From Patescibacteria group bacterium (GTDB lineage: Bacteria > Patescibacteriota > Patescibacteriia > UBA2591 > JABMQE01): 53,167 nucleotides of DNA. Position 1 is the stretch's first letter. Every line of letters begins with the position of its first letter. Below are positions 6,989 through 39,648 of this stretch, piece by piece. Position numbers and translations under genes: made by a program. The stretch is taken from assembly GCA_018896645.1 (NCBI GenBank), contig JAHIMF010000040.1, positions 1-53,167 of the forward strand, read 5' to 3'. The notes under the pieces were generated by a model. That model saw nothing but the letters and a program-made list of their open reading frames with translations. It did no database searches and had not been told where the DNA came from.

Positions 6989-8908
6989 ATGGCTTTTAAA
7001 CCAACAACAGAACAACCTATAAAAGTAGGGGAAAAACAGGAGATCACGACTACCGAAAAATTGAGAAAGGAACAGGAGGGGGTGCAAGTGGAAAAAGAAA
7101 CCCTTAAAGCAGAACAGGCTTATCTTCAGGGAACAGCTGTAGTAAGGGATTTGATTGCCCCGACCTCTATGCAGATTACCCCGCATCATTTAGAGTTAAA
7201 TGATAAGTTTGTGCGTACTATATTTGTAGTCACCTATCCGCGATATGTAGCGGTTGGCTGGTTTGCGCCAATCATCAATTTGAGCGCGCCTTTGGATATC
7301 TCTATGTTTTTTTATAAAATTGAGAGTTCGTATATTCTTAAAAAATTAAGAAATAAGGTCGGGCAGATCGAAGCTGATTTGGCTGCAGATTTGGATAAAG
7401 GGGCCCCAAGAGACCCGGTCAAAGAGACAGCCCTAAGGGATGTTGAAGATTTACGGGATTCTTTGACTCAAGGCACCGAATATTTTTTCCGGTTTGGACT
7501 ATATGTTACTATTTATGCCAATACCAAAGAAGAGTTAAACACCCTTAGCCGACGGGTTGAAGAGGCCCTGGGCTCCAAACTAATTTTTACTAAGCGGGCT
7601 TTGTTTCAAGTAGAGCAGGGTTTTAACTCCACCTTGCCATTGGCTAACGACGAGTTGCAGATTGGTTTTAATATGAATACTTCGCCTTGCGCGGCTTCGT
7701 TTCCTTTTGTTTCCAGCGATCTTTCCAGTGATAACGGCATTTTATATGGCATAAATCGCCATAATAACAGCCTGATTCTTTTTGACCGTTTTTCCTTGCA
7801 GAACGCCAACGCAGTAGTGTTGGCCACTTCTGGCGCGGGTAAAAGTTACGCAGTTAAGTTAGAGGTTTTAAGAAGCATGATGTTGGGTACTGAAGTGATT
7901 ATTATTGATCCAGAAATGGAATATAAACATTTATCAGATGCGGTTGGCGGCGCTTATATCAACATTTCTTTGAATTCCGATTCCAAATTAAATCCCTTTG
8001 ATCTGCCCAGACCGACTGGCGGAAAGATTGATACAGCCAGTATCCTACGTTCAGCAGTAATCACCTTGAAGGGTTTGTTAAAAATAATGATTGGTGTGCG
8101 TGATGAAAATGGCCGTCCTGATTTTACGCCATCCGAGGATGCTTTATTAGACAGGGCCCTTTTAGAAGCATATGCCAAGGTTGACATTACGGCTCAGACC
8201 AACCTCAACCAGGAGGTTAATCCGCCTGTGATGTCGGATTTACTGGATGTTTTAGAGAGTATGTCTGGCGGTGATGATTTGGCGGCCCGGCTTAAAAAAT
8301 ATACTGAAGGCACATTTTCTGGCTTGCTTAATAGTCCAACGAATATTGATGCTCATAATCAGCTAGTTGTTTTTTCGGTGCGGGATTTAGAGGACGAGTT
8401 GCGGCCAATGGCAATTTATACGATTGTCAATTACATTTGGAACATTGTTCGCAGTGAGACAAAAAAGAGAATTTTAACTATTGATGAAGCTTGGTGGTTA
8501 ATGCAACATGAAGATAGCGCTAAATTTATTTTCGCGTTGATAAAACGTTGTCGGAAATATTATTTGGGTGTTACCACTATTACCCAAGATATTAATGATT
8601 TTTTAAGGTCCCCTTATGGCCAGGCCATTGTTAATAATTCGGCAATGCAGTTATTGCTGAAGCAATCCGCCTCGGGCATTGATTTGATTGCTGAGACATT
8701 TAAATTGACTCAAGGTGAGCGGTATTTATTATTAGAATCTGGCGTGGGGGAAGGCATTTTCTTTGCCGGCGCTAAGCATGCGGCCATCAAAGTCGTTGCT
8801 TCTTATACGGAAGACCAGTTGATTACTTCTGATCCGCGGCAGTTGCTAGAGATTGAAATTGCGAAAAAAGAGTTTGAGGAGGAGATGGGGGCGGCAGGTG
8901 GTACATAA
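6989..8908 (+). CDS. virB4: VirB4-like secretion ATPase
   Basis: A 639-residue VirB4/TraC-family ATPase, the cytoplasmic motor of the type IV secretion-like system. An N-terminal domain (about 50-260) precedes the RecA-like motor. Walker A is GAGKS at 282-286 and Walker B is LTIDEAWW with D499/E500. A downstream motif QDINDFLRSPYGQAIVNNS matches the family's conserved C-terminal helix region. Length is typical for CPR and Gram-positive VirB4. There is no membrane segment. Neighbours PrgI, VirB6-like and VirB2-like support a complete but minimal machine. No coupling protein or relaxase lies in this window, so secretion, DNA uptake or conjugation cannot be separated. Confidence 0.9.
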   Translation: MAFKPTTEQPIKVGEKQEITTTEKLRKEQEGVQVEKETLKAEQAYLQGTAVVRDLIAPTSMQITPHHLELNDKFVRTIFVVTYPRYVAVGWFAPIINLSAPLDISMFFYKIESSYILKKLRNKVGQIEADLAADLDKGAPRDPVKETALRDVEDLRDSLTQGTEYFFRFGLYVTIYANTKEELNTLSRRVEEALGSKLIFTKRALFQVEQGFNSTLPLANDELQIGFNMNTSPCAASFPFVSSDLSSDNGILYGINRHNNSLILFDRFSLQNANAVVLATSGAGKSYAVKLEVLRSMMLGTEVIIIDPEMEYKHLSDAVGGAYINISLNSDSKLNPFDLPRPTGGKIDTASILRSAVITLKGLLKIMIGVRDENGRPDFTPSEDALLDRALLEAYAKVDITAQTNLNQEVNPPVMSDLLDVLESMSGGDDLAARLKKYTEGTFSGLLNSPTNIDAHNQLVVFSVRDLEDELRPMAIYTIVNYIWNIVRSETKKRILTIDEAWWLMQHEDSAKFIFALIKRCRKYYLGVTTITQDINDFLRSPYGQAIVNNSAMQLLLKQSASGIDLIAETFKLTQGERYLLLESGVGEGIFFAGAKHAAIKVVASYTEDQLITSDPRQLLEIEIAKKEFEEEMGAAGGT

Positions 8909-10905: not shown

Positions 10906-11514
10906 ATGTTCAAAGACAAACTTTCTAAAATTTCAGAGCTCCTTAAAAATAAAAAAGTCGGGGTTTTTTGTGATGACTCTAATCTTTATCATGCTTATCA
11001 AAAATATGGCTGACGCATTGATTTTGGGAAGTTTAGAAAGTTATTAGAAGATAGCTGTGATTTAAAATTTATTCATTATCACCTTGCAATTCCTGATAAA
11101 AGCGATAATGTATTTTTAGGAACAAAAAGATTCTTGGCTAAAATAGGGCGGTTCGTCACCTTGAAGAAGAAGCCAATAAAATATACGCCAATTGCCGGCA
11201 AGGTGATGAAAAAAGCCGATGTTGATGTTGAGATTACTATAGATGTTGTTAGGAATGTTGACGATTTAGATGTAGTTATAGTGGTTAGTGGAGATAGTGA
11301 TTTTGTTGAGCTCAAAAATTATGTTGTTTATGATAAAAAGAAAGGCATTTTATTTATTGGCTATGAAGAAAATATGGCTTGGGAATTACGGCAGTGCTGG
11401 CACCTTTATTTAAATAGGATTAAAAATGAGGTGATTTTGAGACAAAAAAACAAGCCCCGGGTTTTATCCCGGGGTAGCGTTGCTGTTCCTTGGTCAAAAG
11501 GCCAAGGAAAGTGA
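10906..11514 (+). pseudogene. NYN-domain (LabA-like) putative ribonuclease gene interrupted by in-frame TGA
   Basis: Reading from ATG 10906, 35 codons (ending NLYHAYQKYG) are followed by TGA at 11011-11013, and the same frame continues for 166 codons. The whole reads as one NYN-domain protein of the PIN-like LabA/DUF88 group, usually a metal-dependent RNase. D23/D24, N26 and S128-GDSDF-133 supply the acidic site. The paralogue at 13374 has Trp at the TGA position (TLGWKISYEKL versus KYG*RIDFGKF), so a TGG-to-TGA change is likely. The gene may be dead, read through, or a sequencing error. A shorter product could start at TTG 11134 but would lack the first catalytic acids. The last 20 codons run through the hairpins of the antisense RNA at 11444-11527. 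The first seven codons equal those of the gene at 11711. Confidence 0.7.
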
Positions 11515-11527
11515 TATCAATATCACT
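11444..11527 (-). ncRNA. candidate structured small RNA antisense to the NYN gene 3' end
   Basis: The minus-strand promoter at 11534-11561 would start an RNA near 11527. It then has a 7-bp hairpin (GTGATAT/ATATCAC), a 10-bp hairpin with arms 11486-11495 and 11500-11509, and a 7-bp CCCCGGG/CCCGGGG hairpin (11455-11474). The last is followed four bases later by seven U (11444-11450), a Rho-independent terminator. Predicted length is about 84 nt. No matching family is recognised. The same arrangement follows the second NYN gene. Confidence 0.55.
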
Positions 11528-11533
11528 ATTACA

Positions 11534-11578
11534 AGTATAGCAGGTTTATAAAAAAAGTCAAGCTTTAGATGTGGATAA
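11534..11578 (-). promoter_or_regulatory. sigma70-type promoter with upstream TTATCCACA box
   Basis: On the minus strand: TTATCCACA (11570-11578), 8 nt, TTGACT (11556-11561), 16 nt, extended -10 TGCTATACT (hexamer 11534-11539). The layout is almost the same at 13962-14007. Confidence 0.65.
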
Positions 11579-11584
11579 CTGACG

Positions 11585-11714
11585 AACATTAAAATACGAG
11601 AACACCAGAACATTAAAACACGAGAACATGAAGTCATTAAAGCAATTTGTTTTAATATTTTAATGTTTTAATGATTTCTTGCTTTAATGTTTTAATGCTT
11701 TTATGCTTTTATGT
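11585..11714. repeat. spacer hairpin (cattaaaa / acgagaac words)
   Basis: The left arm has aacattaaaa and cacgagaac. The right arm has ttttaatg and gctttaatg words. The last word overlaps the start codon and first codons of the gene at 11711. The 20 nt from that ATG are identical to the 20 nt from ATG 10906. Confidence 0.65.
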
Positions 11715-13006
11715 TCAAAGACAAACTTTCCAAAACCTTTTTACTAATTATTATTTTACTGGTTGTTGTCCAAGCAGGGATTTTGTTGTTGGTTAATACT
11801 GTTTATGCGGCAGATGAGAATGCGGGGTTGTGGTGGACAAAAGAGGAGTGTGCCAAAAAATGCGGAGAACTTTTAGCTAAAGAGGGCAAATCACCCGTTG
11901 ATAATCATAATTTTTTCTCAGAGGGTGGTTGTATTGATAAAGATATTGGAGATACAAATCAAGGCGTAATTTGTCTTGTGCCCCCCCCAGAAGTTAAATT
12001 AAGCGTTCCTCTAAATAGCCTTGAAACCCAAACAGTTCGAGGTATTGGCGATTATATTGCAAAGCTTATTGAATGGTCTATTATCACACTTTCTATTTTA
12101 GCCGTGGTAATGATTATGGTGGCTGGGTTTCAATGGATTGCCGCGGCTGGCAATTCCGCTACTATTGGTAAAGCAAAGTCTCGGATAATGAATGCGATTA
12201 TTGGCTTGGTTTTGGCTTTGGGGAGTTTTGTTTTGTTAAATACTATTAATCCTAAATTGGTTGAGTTTGAGGGGGTGAAGGTTAAGATGATACCGACGAT
12301 ACATCAGAGTGCGATGTGGTGTAAGGACTTGAGTTTGACGGAGAGCTTAACCTTAAAATGTAAAACCGAGGGAGCTTGTGATCTTCCCCAAATTACTATT
12401 AAGAAGGATGACAATAAACACGATGATATAGGGTCATGTGGGAAAGAATATGTGTCTACATATGCAATAGAAGAAACTAGAAATATAACCTGTTTAGGTA
12501 ACGATTGCCAACCAACTGGCGAAAAATGCCTTGCCAAGCAGGAAGATGAGGATTATGCTTGTGTGCAGGTCACCATTTATGGGGATTTGAAAGGAAATAA
12601 GAAAGTACGGGAAATTTGGGCTTATGCAGAATGCGAAGAAGAAATAAAAGTACTGGGTGTAGAGGGGATGGTTTTAGGAAATGGGTCATCCTATGCTTTC
12701 GGACTTAATGTGATTGATTTGGAAGAGTATTGTTGTAAAGCACGGGGGTTAGAACATTGCGGAGGCGACTCCATGGCAAAGGGTTTTTTCTTGGGTGTAT
12801 TGATGGAGGATAACTGGGATACTGATGATTGGATTGCTATTGATGCGGATGGGAATGCTTTTCTGAATGAGAAGGGTGAGAATGTAATACCAGCCTATGT
12901 TTCAGAACACTGGCGTGATGAGTGGATTGGTTTATTTCTTTTAGAAGGACAGATAGATGTTGGCGTGAAAGTAGATATTGATACTACGGATATTAAAAAT
13001 AGATAA
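11711..13006 (+). CDS. VirB2/TrbC-like pilin-type membrane protein with large Cys-rich C-terminal domain
   Basis: A 431-residue protein. A signal peptide (about 10-34, ending VYAA) is followed by a short Cys-containing segment. A VirB2/TrbC-type two-helix hairpin follows (about 116-145 and 150-180: IGDYIAKLIEWSI, AGFQWIAAAGNSATIGKAK, ALGSFVLLNTINPK). Ordinary VirB2 pilins end here at about 100-120 residues. This one carries a further 240-residue extracellular domain with about ten Cys, suggesting disulfides, and acidic C-terminal segments. The role is probably a structural or tip subunit of the secretion apparatus. A run of eight C at 11981-11988 lies in the coding sequence. Confidence 0.65.
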   Translation: MFKDKLSKTFLLIIILLVVVQAGILLLVNTVYAADENAGLWWTKEECAKKCGELLAKEGKSPVDNHNFFSEGGCIDKDIGDTNQGVICLVPPPEVKLSVPLNSLETQTVRGIGDYIAKLIEWSIITLSILAVVMIMVAGFQWIAAAGNSATIGKAKSRIMNAIIGLVLALGSFVLLNTINPKLVEFEGVKVKMIPTIHQSAMWCKDLSLTESLTLKCKTEGACDLPQITIKKDDNKHDDIGSCGKEYVSTYAIEETRNITCLGNDCQPTGEKCLAKQEDEDYACVQVTIYGDLKGNKKVREIWAYAECEEEIKVLGVEGMVLGNGSSYAFGLNVIDLEEYCCKARGLEHCGGDSMAKGFFLGVLMEDNWDTDDWIAIDADGNAFLNEKGENVIPAYVSEHWRDEWIGLFLLEGQIDVGVKVDIDTTDIKNR

Positions 13007-13014
13007 ATTTTTTA

Positions 13015-13097
13015 GCCGACATGCGGTTACGCAACGGCAGCGCAAAATAAAACGACTTACGGCATACACACAACGGCTCCACGTAGAACATGGAGCC
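13015..13097. repeat. REP-like element, copy 1
   Basis: A GC-rich element starting gccgacatgcggttacgcaa and ending in the hairpin GGCTCCA/TGGAGCC (13075-13097) with GTAG in the loop. It is closely similar to 14036-14119. It lies just after the VirB2-like gene. Confidence 0.75.
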
Positions 13098-13210
13098 AGC
13101 AAGCAGCAAGTTAATATAGATAGTTTTTAATGGTGCAAATAGTCTTCCAAGTAAACTCTAGTTAATGGTGCAAATGGTGTAAATGCACCATTAGAGCTTT
13201 TCCGCCCCCC

Positions 13211-13373: not shown

Positions 13374-13883
13374 ATGATTTCAAAATATATCAAAGGAAAA
13401 GTTTATGTTTTTATAGATGTTGAGAATGTTTTTTATTCACAGGATACATTGGGCTGGAAAATTTCTTATGAAAAACTGATTAAATATTTTAAATCAGAGT
13501 GTGGGGATAATACAAAATGTTTTGCTTATACTGGAGTTGACAAAAATAATTCCGGACAGAAAAAATTTCTTGATATGCTTGATATTAATGGATACATTTT
13601 GAGAACAAAAGAGATAAAAAAGATTAACACAGGGCATGAAAGATATAAATGGAAAAGTAATTTAGATGTAGAGATTGCTTTAGAAATAGTGGAGTTAAGG
13701 GAGAGTTACGATACTGCCATTTTAATGAGCGGTGATAGTGATTTTGCCGCGCCCATAGATAAAATAAAAAAAGATAGAAAAAGAATTATTGTGATGTCCA
13801 CTAGAGGTAGGGTAGCAAGAGAACTCATAGAAAGAGCTAAATTTGTTGATTTAAGGAAATTAAAAACAATAATTAGCCAGTAG
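13374..13883 (+). CDS. NYN-domain (LabA-like) putative ribonuclease
   Basis: A 169-residue NYN-domain protein with a PIN-like fold. The first acidic motif is FIDVEN (D15, N18) and the second is MSGDSDF (S119-D123), followed by an INDP-like C-terminal strand (IVMSTRGRVARELIERA). Proteins of this group are usually single-strand RNases; the substrate is unknown here. The ATG at 13374 is preferred, because extending to 13290 would translate the REP hairpin. Its paralogue at 10906 is interrupted. A convergent minus-strand small RNA unit lies 20 nt downstream, as at the paralogue, hinting at a functional pair. Confidence 0.8.
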   Translation: MISKYIKGKVYVFIDVENVFYSQDTLGWKISYEKLIKYFKSECGDNTKCFAYTGVDKNNSGQKKFLDMLDINGYILRTKEIKKINTGHERYKWKSNLDVEIALEIVELRESYDTAILMSGDSDFAAPIDKIKKDRKRIIVMSTRGRVARELIERAKFVDLRKLKTIISQ

Positions 13884-13903: not shown

Positions 13904-13955
13904 TAAAAAAATCTGGAGCTATCCCCTTGCGGGGATACTCCAGAGTGTTATCACA
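13904..13955 (-). ncRNA. candidate short hairpin RNA downstream of the second NYN gene
   Basis: The promoter at 13962-13989 would start an RNA near 13955. It has a small GTG-ataa-CAC hairpin, then a strong stem TCTGGAG(t)ATCCCC / GGGGAT(ag)CTCCAGA with a GCAA tetraloop (13912-13944), followed by seven U (13904-13911). Predicted length is about 52 nt. The stem plus U-tract is a good Rho-independent terminator in the minus direction only, so it does not serve the NYN gene. Confidence 0.55.
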
Positions 13956-13961
13956 TTAAAC

Positions 13962-14007
13962 AGTATAGCATACCCATATTTTTTGTCAACCCCCACTATG
14001 TGGATAA
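13962..14007 (-). promoter_or_regulatory. sigma70-type promoter with upstream TTATCCACA box
   Basis: On the minus strand: TTATCCACA (13999-14007), 9 nt, TTGACA (13984-13989), 16 nt, extended -10 TGCTATACT (hexamer 13962-13967). It is the best promoter match in the window and points to the ncRNA at 13904-13955. Confidence 0.7.
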
Positions 14008-14016
14008 CCTCCCGCT

Positions 14017-14119
14017 GGCTCTTGGTTCCACCAAGAGCCGACATGCGGTTACGCAACGACTGTGCAAAACGGAACGACTAACGGCATACGCATAACGGCT
14101 CCAAGTAGAACTTGGAGCC
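14017..14119. repeat. REP-like element, copy 2 (two hairpins)
   Basis: Starts with the perfect 9-bp hairpin GGCTCTTGG-ttcca-CCAAGAGCC (14017-14039) and ends with the perfect 9-bp hairpin GGCTCCAAG-tagaa-CTTGGAGCC (14097-14119). It is REPIN-like and lies 36 nt upstream of the transposase ATG at 14156. Confidence 0.8.
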
Positions 14120-14155
14120 AGCAGCCCAGCAACCAAACACCCACACTAACAATCA

Positions 14156-14773: not shown

Positions 14774-15838
14774 ATGTTCAAGCCCAAATATACAATTACC
14801 CATCCTATTCTTAATAATTTTTTGGACATCGCCGAGGTGCGGTCATTGGTTTTACATACTTTGATATTACCTCGCGAGGAAGCCAGGTTAAGGCGAGAGG
14901 CCTTGGTGCGGATGATTCATTCTTCAACGAGCATTGAAGGAAATATTTTAAATCGTTATGAAGTGGAAAAAGTGTTGGCCGGTAAAAAAGTGGATGCGCC
15001 CAAGCGAGATGTTTTTGAAGTCAAAAATTATCGCGATGCTTTGCATTATGTTTTCCAATTCATCCAAAAGAAAAAGCCAATTACAATCCAGACAATTCTA
15101 GAAATTCATCGATTAGTTACCAAAAATACCCTTACTCAAGATAAATGTGGAAAATTCAGAAAAGACAAAGTTTATGTGGTGAGCCGTCGAGGCAGTAAAA
15201 TTATTAAAGTATCATATACTGGCCCTGACGCTAAACAGGTTCCAAAATTAATTAAAGATTTAGTGGTTTGGCTTAAGAAAACTAAACAAGATAATATTTG
15301 CCCGATAATTGTCGCTGGATTAGCCCATTCAGAAATCGCGGCTATTCATCCTTTTGCTGATGGCAATGGCCGGACAGCGAGAATTTTAGCTACTTTGATT
15401 CTTTATCAGCGAGGTTATGACTTTCGGAAACTATTTGCTTTAGAAGATTATTATAATCAAGATAGGCCGGCCTATTATAAAGCCATTCATCTGGGTAAAA
15501 ATTATCAGGAACGTCTACAAGCTGATTCAACCAACTGGCTGGAATATTTTATCAGTGGTTTTAATTTTGAGATGCGGAAAATAAAAGATAAAATAATTCC
15601 CTTGAGTTTGGATGTAAAAATGCGCAAAAAACTTGGCGGTCCGGTTTATTTGGATAAGAAGCAAATCAAGATTGTTGACTTTATGATGACAATGGGTCGA
15701 ATTGACAGTAATGATGTGGTGGATATTTTTAATATTGATAAAAGAACGGCTCAACGTTATATCAACGAAATTCTCAAGACAAAATTAATAAGAAAAGAAG
15801 GTCAGGGACCAGCCAGTTTTTACACATTAAATATTTGA
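14774..15838 (+). CDS. Fic family protein (AMPylase-type)
   Basis: A 354-residue Fic protein. The catalytic loop is HPFADGNGRTAR starting at H192. The N-terminal inhibitory helix motif STSIEGN (S53, E55-G56-N57) places it with class II autoinhibited Fic proteins. The C-terminal region (about 290-354) looks like a winged-helix domain (DIFNIDKRTAQRYINEIL). Fic enzymes usually transfer AMP from ATP to a protein hydroxyl; the target is unknown. It stands alone, downstream of the transposase gene and separated from it by 63 nt. There is no antitoxin-like neighbour, consistent with built-in inhibition. Confidence 0.85.
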   Translation: MFKPKYTITHPILNNFLDIAEVRSLVLHTLILPREEARLRREALVRMIHSSTSIEGNILNRYEVEKVLAGKKVDAPKRDVFEVKNYRDALHYVFQFIQKKKPITIQTILEIHRLVTKNTLTQDKCGKFRKDKVYVVSRRGSKIIKVSYTGPDAKQVPKLIKDLVVWLKKTKQDNICPIIVAGLAHSEIAAIHPFADGNGRTARILATLILYQRGYDFRKLFALEDYYNQDRPAYYKAIHLGKNYQERLQADSTNWLEYFISGFNFEMRKIKDKIIPLSLDVKMRKKLGGPVYLDKKQIKIVDFMMTMGRIDSNDVVDIFNIDKRTAQRYINEILKTKLIRKEGQGPASFYTLNI

Positions 15839-15990
15839 TGTCGCGATTTTTGTCGCGATTTTGTCGCTTTTGCAAAATTAACTTCTGATGCTTAATGAGC
15901 CGCATTTGAGCCAGTAATTATTTGTTTTAAATATTTGATTGCGGGATTTTCTGCGGGATAATTGCGGGATTGTAGATGTCCGTTATTTGT
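15839..15990 (+). repeat. short direct repeats in the fic-ORF6N gap
   Basis: tgtcgcgatttt occurs twice plus a third partial copy (15839-15870). gcgggat occurs three times (15951-15969). tgtccgt occurs twice (about 15977-15995). Nothing else is seen in the 195-nt gap. Confidence 0.6.
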
Positions 15991-16033
15991 CCGTATAGCG
16001 AACCAACTGTTCAAAAATAAAACAACAAAAATT

Positions 16034-16549
16034 ATGTCCACGAAAATTATTATTCCCAGTGAAAGAGTAACCAATAAAATTATTTTTATTCGCGGCAGAA
16101 AAGTGATGCTTGATCAGGACTTAGCCGAGCTTTATGGCGTTGAGACAAAAGAACTTAAAAGGGCCGCAAGAAGAAACACCTCCCGTTTCCCGGTTGATTT
16201 TATGTTTGAGTTAACACTGGAGGAGTATCAATTTTTAAGGAGCCAATTTGGCACCTTAAAAAGAGGCGAGCATGCAAAATATTTACCGTATGCATTTACC
16301 GAACAAGGAGTGGCTATGCTTTCCAGCGTTTTGAACAGCGAGAGAGCAATTCAGGTTAACATTCAAATTATTAGGATTTTCATAAAACTAAGAGAGATGC
16401 TCTCAACTCACAAAGAATTACGGGAGAAGATTGAGAAAATGGAGAAGAAATATGATAAACAATTCAGAGTAGTATTTGAGGCGATAAAGCGATTGTTGGA
16501 TAAGAAGTCAGAGCCAACAAAAGAAATAGGATTTAAAGAAAAAAAATAG
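16034..16549 (+). CDS. ORF6N domain-containing protein
   Basis: A 171-residue protein with an N-terminal ORF6N domain (about 8-95: IIFIRGRKVMLDQDLAELYG, AVKRNxxRFPxDFMF-type segment, YAFTEQGVAML). A charged helical tail (about 110-171) looks like coiled coil. ORF6N domains are found in phage anti-repressor-like proteins and in many CPR genomes; DNA binding is inferred. The start is ATG 16034; a TTG frame extending to 15962 runs into the repeats. It forms part of the accessory island with Fic and RAYT genes. Confidence 0.8.
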   Translation: MSTKIIIPSERVTNKIIFIRGRKVMLDQDLAELYGVETKELKRAARRNTSRFPVDFMFELTLEEYQFLRSQFGTLKRGEHAKYLPYAFTEQGVAMLSSVLNSERAIQVNIQIIRIFIKLREMLSTHKELREKIEKMEKKYDKQFRVVFEAIKRLLDKKSEPTKEIGFKEKK

Positions 16550-37822: not shown

Positions 37823-37876
37823 AGGGTGTTTTAAAGTTAATAATTAGATTATTTAATTTGTTGACTTAGCAAATTT

Positions 37877-37906
37877 ATTATATAATAAAAGCAAGGGTTT
37901 TGTCAA
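37877..37906 (-). promoter_or_regulatory. sigma70-type promoter of lemA-htpX
   Basis: On the minus strand: TTGACA (37901-37906), 18 nt, TATAAT (37877-37882). It would give a leader of about 47 nt to the lemA ATG. Confidence 0.7.
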
Positions 37907-37907
37907 T

Positions 37908-38090
37908 AAAACATTAAAGCAATAAAGCATTAAAACATTAAAGCAATAAAGCATTAAAGCAATAAAACATTAAAACAAAAAAACATTAAAACAAAAAAAC
38001 ATTAAAGCAATAAAACAATAAAACATTAAAACAATAAAACAAAAAAACATTAAAACAATTTGCTTTAATGCTCTCGTGCTTTAATGCTCC
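37908..38090. repeat. spacer word array (cattaaag / caataaaa)
   Basis: About 18 units of cattaaag, caataaag, caataaaa and caaaaaaa, then aatttgctttaatg and an inverse right arm (gctctcgtgctttaatgc). It lies in the 350-nt divergent gap between lemA and pilM, which contains no gene. Confidence 0.8.
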
Positions 38091-38095
38091 CACTG

Positions 38096-38136
38096 TTATC
38101 CACATGTTTCTTGTTTTAACTAATCTATGGTATAAT
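38096..38136 (+). promoter_or_regulatory. pilM promoter with TTATCCACA box
   Basis: TTATCCACA at 38096-38104 and an extended -10 (TGG then TATAAT at 38131-38136). The -35 is weak (TTCTTG or TTGTTT region). The start near 38143 would give a leader of about 30 nt without a Shine-Dalgarno. Confidence 0.6.
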
Positions 38137-38172: not shown

Positions 38173-39399
38173 ATGGGTTTATTTTCTAAAAGTAAAAGTT
38201 ACTTAGGCGTGGATCTTGGCACCGCCAGTGTTAAAATTATTGAGCTGGCTAACCAGGATGGCAAGCCGCGGCTTTTAACTTATGGCTATCTAGATTGGTC
38301 AACCGATATCATGAGAAACACCGCGCCTGAAGCAAAGAATAAGGTTGCTGCGATGATTAAGGCCATTTGTGAAAAATCACAAACTCGGAGTCGCAAGGCG
38401 GTTACGGCCCTGCCGAGTTTTTCAGTATTCAACTCCATCATCAATTTGCCAAGAATGTCCAAAAAAGATTTATCCTCGGCTATTTACTGGGAAGCCAAGA
38501 AGTTTGTGCCAATGCCAATAGAAGAGGTGATTTTAGATTGGAAGATTTTAGAGCCAGAAATTTCTAGCAATTATCACACCATAGATAACAAAAAGAAAGA
38601 AGAGTATTTTGTCAAAAATCAGGAAATGGCTGATTCTGACTTTAAAAATAAATCCCCAAAAGAAAATAACGAACCCTCTCAAAAAAGTGATAATAAAAAT
38701 TTACGCATCCTTTTGACTGCCGCCCCTAAGAATTTGGTTAAAAAGTATATTGATATTTTTGAGCAAGCCGAGCTCGAACTTTTGAGCTTGGAAACAGAGT
38801 CTTTTGCTTTGGGTCGCAGTCTTGTTGGGGGAGACAGGGCCACGGTAATGGTTATTGACTTGGGGGCAACCACCACTGACATTATAATAATGAAATCCGG
38901 TATTCCGCTTTTAAGCCGCAGTATTGATATAGGCGGCATGACCATTACTAAATCTATAGTGAATACTTTAAATATAGGCGAGAAGCGGGCCGAGCAGTTC
39001 AAGCGGGACATTGGTATTTCTTTGGCGGCGGCTGCCGGTTCTTTGGCAGATCAGACCCAAGGACAACTTTCTAATGGGTTTAATTCCGCGGCTAAAGGAT
39101 GGGGAGGGGTACCGCGGGCCATCCGAGAGGTTATGGATTCATTAATTAATGAAATTCGTTATTCGTTAGATTTGTATCAAACCCAAAGCGGCGAACATGT
39201 AGAGAAAGTCATCCTTTCTGGCGGTTCAGCATTTTTACCAAATTTATCTGAATATTTTGCACAAATGCTTGAGATTAAGGTTTTTATTGGTGATCCTTGG
39301 AGTCGGGTAATTTATCCAACAGAACTAAAATTTTCGCTTGAAGAGCTGGGCCCATGCTTTGCCGTAGCTATTGGTCTGGCAATGAGAGAGATAGAATGA
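38173..39399 (+). CDS. pilM: type IV pilus assembly ATPase-like protein PilM
   Basis: A 408-residue actin-like PilM, the cytoplasmic scaffold that binds the N-terminal tail of PilN. Phosphate and nucleotide motifs are YLGVDLGTASVKIIEL, VMVIDLGATTTDIIIM and VILSGGSAFLPNL. A central insertion (about 135-172, Asn/Lys-rich) is longer than usual. It is the first gene of the pilus locus pilM-pilN-pilO-PilP-like-pilB-RR-pilT-pilC. It has its own promoter just upstream, so this promoter probably drives at least the first genes. Confidence 0.92.
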   Translation: MGLFSKSKSYLGVDLGTASVKIIELANQDGKPRLLTYGYLDWSTDIMRNTAPEAKNKVAAMIKAICEKSQTRSRKAVTALPSFSVFNSIINLPRMSKKDLSSAIYWEAKKFVPMPIEEVILDWKILEPEISSNYHTIDNKKKEEYFVKNQEMADSDFKNKSPKENNEPSQKSDNKNLRILLTAAPKNLVKKYIDIFEQAELELLSLETESFALGRSLVGGDRATVMVIDLGATTTDIIIMKSGIPLLSRSIDIGGMTITKSIVNTLNIGEKRAEQFKRDIGISLAAAAGSLADQTQGQLSNGFNSAAKGWGGVPRAIREVMDSLINEIRYSLDLYQTQSGEHVEKVILSGGSAFLPNLSEYFAQMLEIKVFIGDPWSRVIYPTELKFSLEELGPCFAVAIGLAMREIE

Positions 39400-39403
39400 A
39401 ATA

Positions 39404-39648
39404 TCATTAAAGCATTAAAGCATTAAAGCATTAAAGCATTAAAGCATTAAAGCAAAAAAGCATTAAAGCATTAAAGCATTAAAACAAAAAAGCATTAAAG
39501 CAAAAAAACAAAAAAACAAAAAAGCATTAAAGCAAAAAAGCATTAAAGCATTAAAACATTAAAACATTAAAGCAATTTGCTTTAATGTTCTCGTGCTCTC
39601 GTGCTTTAATGTTCTCGTACTCTCGTGCTCTTGTGTTTTAATGTCTTA
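39404..39648. repeat. largest spacer word array (cattaaag / caaaaaag)
   Basis: Six contiguous cattaaag units, then mixed cattaaag, caaaaaag, caaaaaaa and cattaaaa units to about 39575. The short aattt loop and an inverse right arm (gctttaatg, ttctcgtgc words) follow and end at the pilN start codon. The 250-nt gap between pilM and pilN holds nothing else. Confidence 0.85.

Follow-up and report, generated by a model that had tools for sequence, protein, structure and literature searches.

The stretch examined here, contig JAHIMF010000040.1 of a Patescibacteria group bacterium (assembly GCA_018896645.1; 53,167 nucleotides, called the window below), raises the question of what a complete minus-strand transcription unit for a structured RNA is doing at the 3' end of a gene for an NYN ribonuclease (RNase). 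An earlier note had described such a unit at 11444-11578 (a box, a promoter, three hairpins and a seven-U terminator, about 84 nt of RNA), and considered it plausible that the NYN RNase has a dedicated structured RNA as its partner. All parts of the unit were found on the minus strand, and its recurrence, followed both from the protein and from the RNA side, supports the idea of a pair: the NYN gene with its facing RNA is apparently a recurring and undescribed two-part arrangement, present in this bacterium and in about a hundred relatives. The features of the two loci in the window are the following.

10906..11514, plus strand: NYN1 gene, NYN/PIN-like RNase (Pfam NYN, 7e-17), with an in-frame TGA at 11011-11013
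11444..11527, minus strand: predicted small RNA W1, about 84 nt, three hairpins and U7 terminator
11534..11561, minus strand: W1 promoter, TTGACT-16-TGC-TATACT
11570..11578, minus strand: TTATCCACA box (DnaA-box-like), upstream of the W1 -35 element
13374..13883, plus strand: NYN2 gene, intact (Pfam NYN, 2.7e-27), with conserved D15, N18, D98, D121 and D123 (alignment A5)
13905..13957, minus strand: predicted small RNA W2, about 52 nt, one bulged hairpin-terminator (fold z -5.5)
13962..13989, minus strand: W2 promoter, TTGACA-16-TGC-TATACT (TTGACA-16-TGCTATACT)
13999..14007, minus strand: TTATCCACA box of the second unit

The W1 promoter consists of TTGACT (11561-11556), a spacer of 16 nt and the extended -10 element TGC-TATACT (11539-11534), i.e. 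TTGACT-16-TGCTATACT. In the RNA the first hairpin is GTGATAT/ATATCAC (11526-11511), the second TTCCTTGG/CCAAGGAA (11509-11486) and the third CCCCGGG/CCCGGGG (11474-11455), followed by seven T (11450-11444). A 94-nt W1 sequence folds with -33.5 kcal/mol, as against -19.5 +/- 3.1 kcal/mol for its shuffled versions (z -4.5; 0/200 shuffles as stable). W1 overlaps NYN1 by about 70 nt and, just as the note had stated, the 3' codons of NYN1 are W1 reversed; overlap of the RNA with the NYN 3' codons is common at homologous loci. W1 matched no family above the gathering score in Rfam (release 15), and scans of relatives, R1 (see below) included, gave no family match either. The two proteins scored 62.7 (NYN1) and 96.5 bits (NYN2) against Pfam NYN (PF01936), where the curated cut-off is 24.2, and judging by their conserved aspartates the NYN proteins are likely metal-dependent RNases. 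Among the PADLOC models NYN2 matched LabA-like NYN (3.6e-12) and the candidate HEC-09 (8.5e-12), both being matches of the protein taken by itself.

The suggestion that the same unit follows the second NYN gene (14007-13905) was right as to layout (box, promoter, hairpin-terminator, facing gene) and wrong as to sequence: W2 belongs to another RNA family and has one main hairpin, and the idea that the second unit repeats the first in sequence was rejected. About 22 nt lie between the NYN2 stop and W2, so that RNA and gene do not overlap.

The bacterium's genome holds NYN paralogues, and so does that of one relative from a different genus. Each of the accessory genes (two on C40, and those on C3, C41, G001 C118 and G001 C26) is faced at its 3' end by a convergent unit of promoter, hairpin and terminator, and no facing unit was seen at the LabA-like, housekeeping NYN gene near an rpsO-like ORF (C12; G001 C32). 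Scanning two NYN paralogues (alignment A2) against 84,980 genomes yielded 53 loci of one accessory subfamily, mostly from candidate-phyla bacteria. Leaving aside the unreadable L126, L130 and L136, 50 loci remained, and in 47 of them an RNA of a family that we call R1 faces the 3' end of NYN from the other strand; at L125 and L133 a unit was recognised by its promoter and by eye, and at L138 there was none. Because most of these loci went into the R1 model, this count is not independent evidence, and the independent tests are a search from the RNA side and a control with other open reading frames (ORFs). The RNA-side set comprised 102 re-scanned R1 matches down to an E-value of about 1e-4, E-values of this home-made model being rough: 79 adjoined a convergent NYN ORF, two were at contig ends and 21 were without NYN. 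The 3' end of the RNA fell mostly between -54 and +20 nt relative to the NYN stop. In the control an automatic scan (promoter of at least 9/12, then a hairpin with a T-run within 30-110 nt) picked up strict convergent units for 28 of 51 NYN ORFs, as against 5 of 207 other ORFs of the same loci (Fisher p=1e-18). The co-occurrence at homologous loci, which had been proposed as a check, is borne out by these counts, and homologues of both NYN proteins of the window also have a facing RNA. R1 was found in 91 of the 380 sampled genomes of the phylum. Several of the unit counts given here were made by eye. Some matching contigs are labelled Omnitrophota, Rhizobium or similar; they are short, binning error is possible, bins may be contaminated, and we make no claim as to host range.

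The alignments show R1 to be a structured RNA. In an unfitted alignment of 47 RNAs (A3) 76.4% of the cells were paired compared to 67.9% after shuffling, with a covariation of 0.449 vs. 0.292 (0/500 shuffles); in the alignment of the 102 matches (A4), which is fitted to the model, the corresponding values were 79.6% vs. 64.7% and 0.511 vs. 0.244, and all 13 pairs had two-sided changes. Among the best-conserved positions are an unpaired 5' AUCACNA and an apical GG-UUYNGU-CC. Most R1 loci carry a single unit, two or three being present in L092, L107, L128 and L131. Some R1 RNAs hold an ATG..TAA, but a short encoded peptide was rejected since, judged by reading the sequences, it is not conserved.

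R1 is not the only such family. Forty C41-type NYN genes had no listed R1 match; by inspection, about 30 of these have a convergent unit and one is at a contig end. At many of these roughly 30 units a second, R2-like family occurs (AAUCAYGAGGGAGAA-ACGACC-stem-CUACGUG-stem-ACGCCUCCC). Homologues of NYN2 also face convergent RNAs of their own; the RNA of the closest, L140 (60% identity), has AAUGUGAU, CUCUGG, AGCUCCAGAUUUUUU and the same single bulged A in common with W2, the inner helix being completely replaced. The NYN1 homologues L199 (48%) and L200 (38%) are faced by RNAs with AAYGNUACCCC-hairpin-GGGG, as in the 3' part of W1 (AACGCUACCCC..GGGGCUU); W1 seems to have gained its two 5' hairpins by insertion. 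The RNA family therefore follows the NYN subfamily: R1, the R2-like set, W2/L140 and W1/L199/L200. As far as sequence comparison goes, the pairing, the convergent layout, the conserved RNA fold and the use of different RNA families by different NYN subfamilies are established.

The promoter is not particular to the W1 locus. The 1.33-Mb genome has 12 copies of TTGAC-N14-TGNTATACT and the reversed control none, and TTATCCACA-N(4-20)-TTGAC occurs 17 times vs. 0 in controls; these counts indicate a genome-wide promoter style. The DnaA-box-like TTATCCACA, in either orientation, is located just 5' of many -35 elements (in the window at 11570, 13999, 38096 and 51940, besides the 17 places genome-wide). 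Downstream of three of the 12 strict promoters is an RNA with a terminator facing an NYN gene (W1, W2 and one on contig C3); of the remaining ones, six are beside odd tRNA-like genes, one stands in sense before an NYN gene (C76), one faces a DUF3800 gene (C64) and one precedes a dnaG-like gene. At C76 (L036, 1194-1850) the same promoter and a terminator hairpin, resembling an RNA-like leader, lie upstream of the NYN gene in sense, the only type III-like gene order seen. The DUF3800 gene of C64 (L038, 870-1580) has a convergent structured RNA, about 115 nt long, whose promoter is of this type too.

What could the RNA do to the enzyme? We lean slightly towards a module of two components, an accessory NYN RNase and a constitutive structured RNA that would restrain it, working much as a type III toxin-antitoxin system does. 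The RNA would be made constitutively from its own strong promoter. Acting as a structured ligand or decoy, it would bind to its cognate NYN and keep the RNase off; when it is lost or out-titrated (locus loss, infection, stress), the enzyme could cleave RNA of the cell or of the invader, which would make the module an addiction or abortive-infection unit. Direct inhibition of NYN by the RNA is most likely the step at which control would be exerted, and of the three mechanisms offered by the earlier note (inhibitor, substrate, antisense) the structured inhibitor fits best. An addiction module would fit the retention of the RNA after loss of the enzyme, the several unrelated copies per genome and the residence in inteins described below. 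Several of the orphan R1 RNAs are accompanied by NYN stumps: N-terminal NYAFIDSQ in L237 and L218, a FAFIDS remnant in L263, and the C-terminal LRKKL region in L178 and L253. Going by these remnants, the enzyme was deleted there and the RNA kept, a pattern to be expected where the enzyme does harm and the RNA alone does none.

Several observations weigh against restraint by the RNA. Nine of the 40 C41-type genes mentioned above have no visible unit, so that the pairing is not absolute and the notion that NYN never occurs without the RNA had to be dropped. The facing RNAs lack tandem repeats of the type III kind, and the 3' overlap with NYN would also permit a role in antisense control or termination. 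Finally, NYN1 of the window is probably broken: the TGA at codon 36 occupies a tryptophan position conserved among NYN1 relatives, and reading it as a sense codon was rejected because 7 of the 28 ORFs in the window stop at TGA. With TGA a stop in this genome, W1 may have survived the loss of its enzyme, or the TGA may reflect a base error of the assembly.

It is unlikely, in our estimation, that the RNA is instead a partner or natural substrate of NYN in an effector particle, trimmed or carried by the enzyme and guiding or activating rather than inhibiting it. The tracking of NYN subfamilies by cognate RNA families and the conserved unpaired 5' tail and loop would fit such a partner, NYN enzymes can process RNA, e.g. 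the CRISPR-associated NYN (PMC11346440), and RNAs from the same promoter with 10-18 nt of complementarity to neighbouring tRNA-like genes indicate that RNA targeting occurs within this promoter class. On the other hand, no variable, guide-like segment is visible in the R1 RNAs, and the persistence of RNAs without NYN is unexpected for a mere cofactor. We consider it rather improbable that the RNA is a cis-antisense regulator, or a collision or termination element, of the NYN mRNA (control like that of type I, or at the 3' end). The RNA does overlap the NYN stop region at many loci, and by about 70 nt in NYN1, but W2 does not reach its gene, the best-conserved parts (5' tail and loop) are often outside the overlap or unneeded for pairing, and RNAs remain after NYN deletion. 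Moreover, complementarity to the 5' region of the own NYN gene was 6.00 nt vs. 6.07 nt for others, not beyond chance there or in the body of the gene, and antisense action on the NYN start region was rejected on this ground. An ordinary terminator behind a chance or general promoter, with no part in NYN function, is strongly disfavoured and very improbable: hairpins are common near gene ends and the TTATCCACA-TTGAC promoter serves elsewhere in the genome, including the dnaG-like gene, yet neither accounts for the excess of units at NYN over other ORFs, the co-localisation seen from the RNA side, or the covariation and conserved unpaired sequence over about 100 RNAs, since a bare terminator would need neither the 5' AUCACNA nor the apical loop.

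It is useful to compare the NYN-RNA module, read as an RNase restrained by its RNA, with known systems. Type III toxin-antitoxin systems (ToxIN, CptIN, TenpIN) likewise combine a putative endoribonuclease with a small structured noncoding RNA in family-specific pairs of patchy spread. In these the RNA antitoxin is upstream in a bicistronic operon, with a terminator between it and the toxin (PMC5086642), whereas the NYN-facing RNA is convergent, downstream and has its own promoter; most loci here have a single unit in place of a tandem-repeat RNA, and instead of the MazF-like ToxN/CptN fold the protein is a Pfam NYN with an NYN-type nearest solved chain (2qip). Because operon order, repeats and toxin fold all differ (PMC5086642), we do not regard the module as a member of type III. 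With type I systems it shares a small RNA on the antisense strand beside a possibly toxic gene; however, the RNA does not pair with the NYN start region and overlaps only the 3' end, and NYN is a soluble RNase-like protein, unlike the small hydrophobic peptides of type I. NYN-domain RNases such as LabA/DUF88, MARF1, the CRISPR-associated NYN and PDB 2qip share the Pfam NYN domain and the conserved catalytic aspartates, but in the open-access literature we found none of them described with a facing small RNA, nor any paper on such an arrangement.

Weinberg et al. are said to have described, in 2017, several unrelated DUF3800 RNA motifs, each adjoining genes of one poorly known protein family. 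The DUF3800 gene on C64 resembles these in its convergent arrangement and uses the promoter type of W1; the difference is that the partner here is NYN and that the NYN-facing RNAs have no Rfam match. To our knowledge, few noncoding RNAs or toxin-antitoxin systems have been characterised in candidate-phyla bacteria, and R1 adds a covarying RNA family, frequent in the sampled genomes of the phylum and tied to one RNase family. If the RNA neutralises the RNase, this would be a new architecture among RNA-antitoxin systems, a convergent RNA with an NYN/PIN-fold enzyme. We give an even chance to the wider proposal that NYN RNases, each under a cognate convergent small RNA from one of at least four families, form a widespread, apparently undescribed class in candidate-phyla bacteria, spreading as compact addiction cassettes found even in-frame in inteins; this would be a new toxin-antitoxin or defence type, distinct in gene order and in the fold of its toxin.

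The intein cases are L199 (1300-2260) and L146 (1000-1800), where NYN is nested in an intein (Pfam Intein_splicing 1.7e-34 and 2.9e-31, respectively) and the RNA unit is read backwards within the same open frame as intein and NYN. The in-frame location of these modules suggests a retention function and, if the RNA neutralises the RNase, such inteins would be selfish elements that may persist by addiction instead of homing. In both inteins NYN takes the place of the homing endonuclease, and in a third genome, G341, a long ORF with an NYN match contains an intein C-terminal motif as well.

The surroundings of the NYN genes in the window are a mobile or conjugative region. NYN2 is flanked by 88-nt palindromic REP-like repeats (13014-13101 and 14036-14123), which a REP-associated tyrosine transposase (NF047646; 14156-14710) adjoins; C16, C20 and the neighbourhood of the C3 NYN gene have related repeats. 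A Fic-domain protein (14774-15838), an ORF6N-domain protein (15962-16549), a type IV secretion pilin (11711-13006) and a TraG-like ATPase (6989-8908) are encoded nearby. No relatives of the R1-type or NYN2 proteins were found in viral contigs and phage records, and plasmids yielded merely NYN proteins of about 30% identity, from alphaproteobacteria. Arrays of a degenerate 8-nt unit (GCTTTAAT and relatives), intergenic and often head to head, are present at 1-120, 11585-11715, 37856-38128 and 39365-39645.

The six odd tRNA-like genes (on L032 C37, 3100-4770, minus strand; L033 C87; L034 C79; L035 C5), one of which was called with a four-base anticodon, each have an adjoining small RNA from a W1-type promoter. 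These RNAs are antisense to the anticodon region or to the arms, with 10-18 nt of exact complement that is always best for the own tRNA-like partner (shuffle maxima 9-11), and the genes are possibly tRNA-like toxins with antisense RNA antidotes. A surface-protein-like gene with an open frame of 707 codons overlaps the three tRNA-like modules of C37 on the opposite strand.
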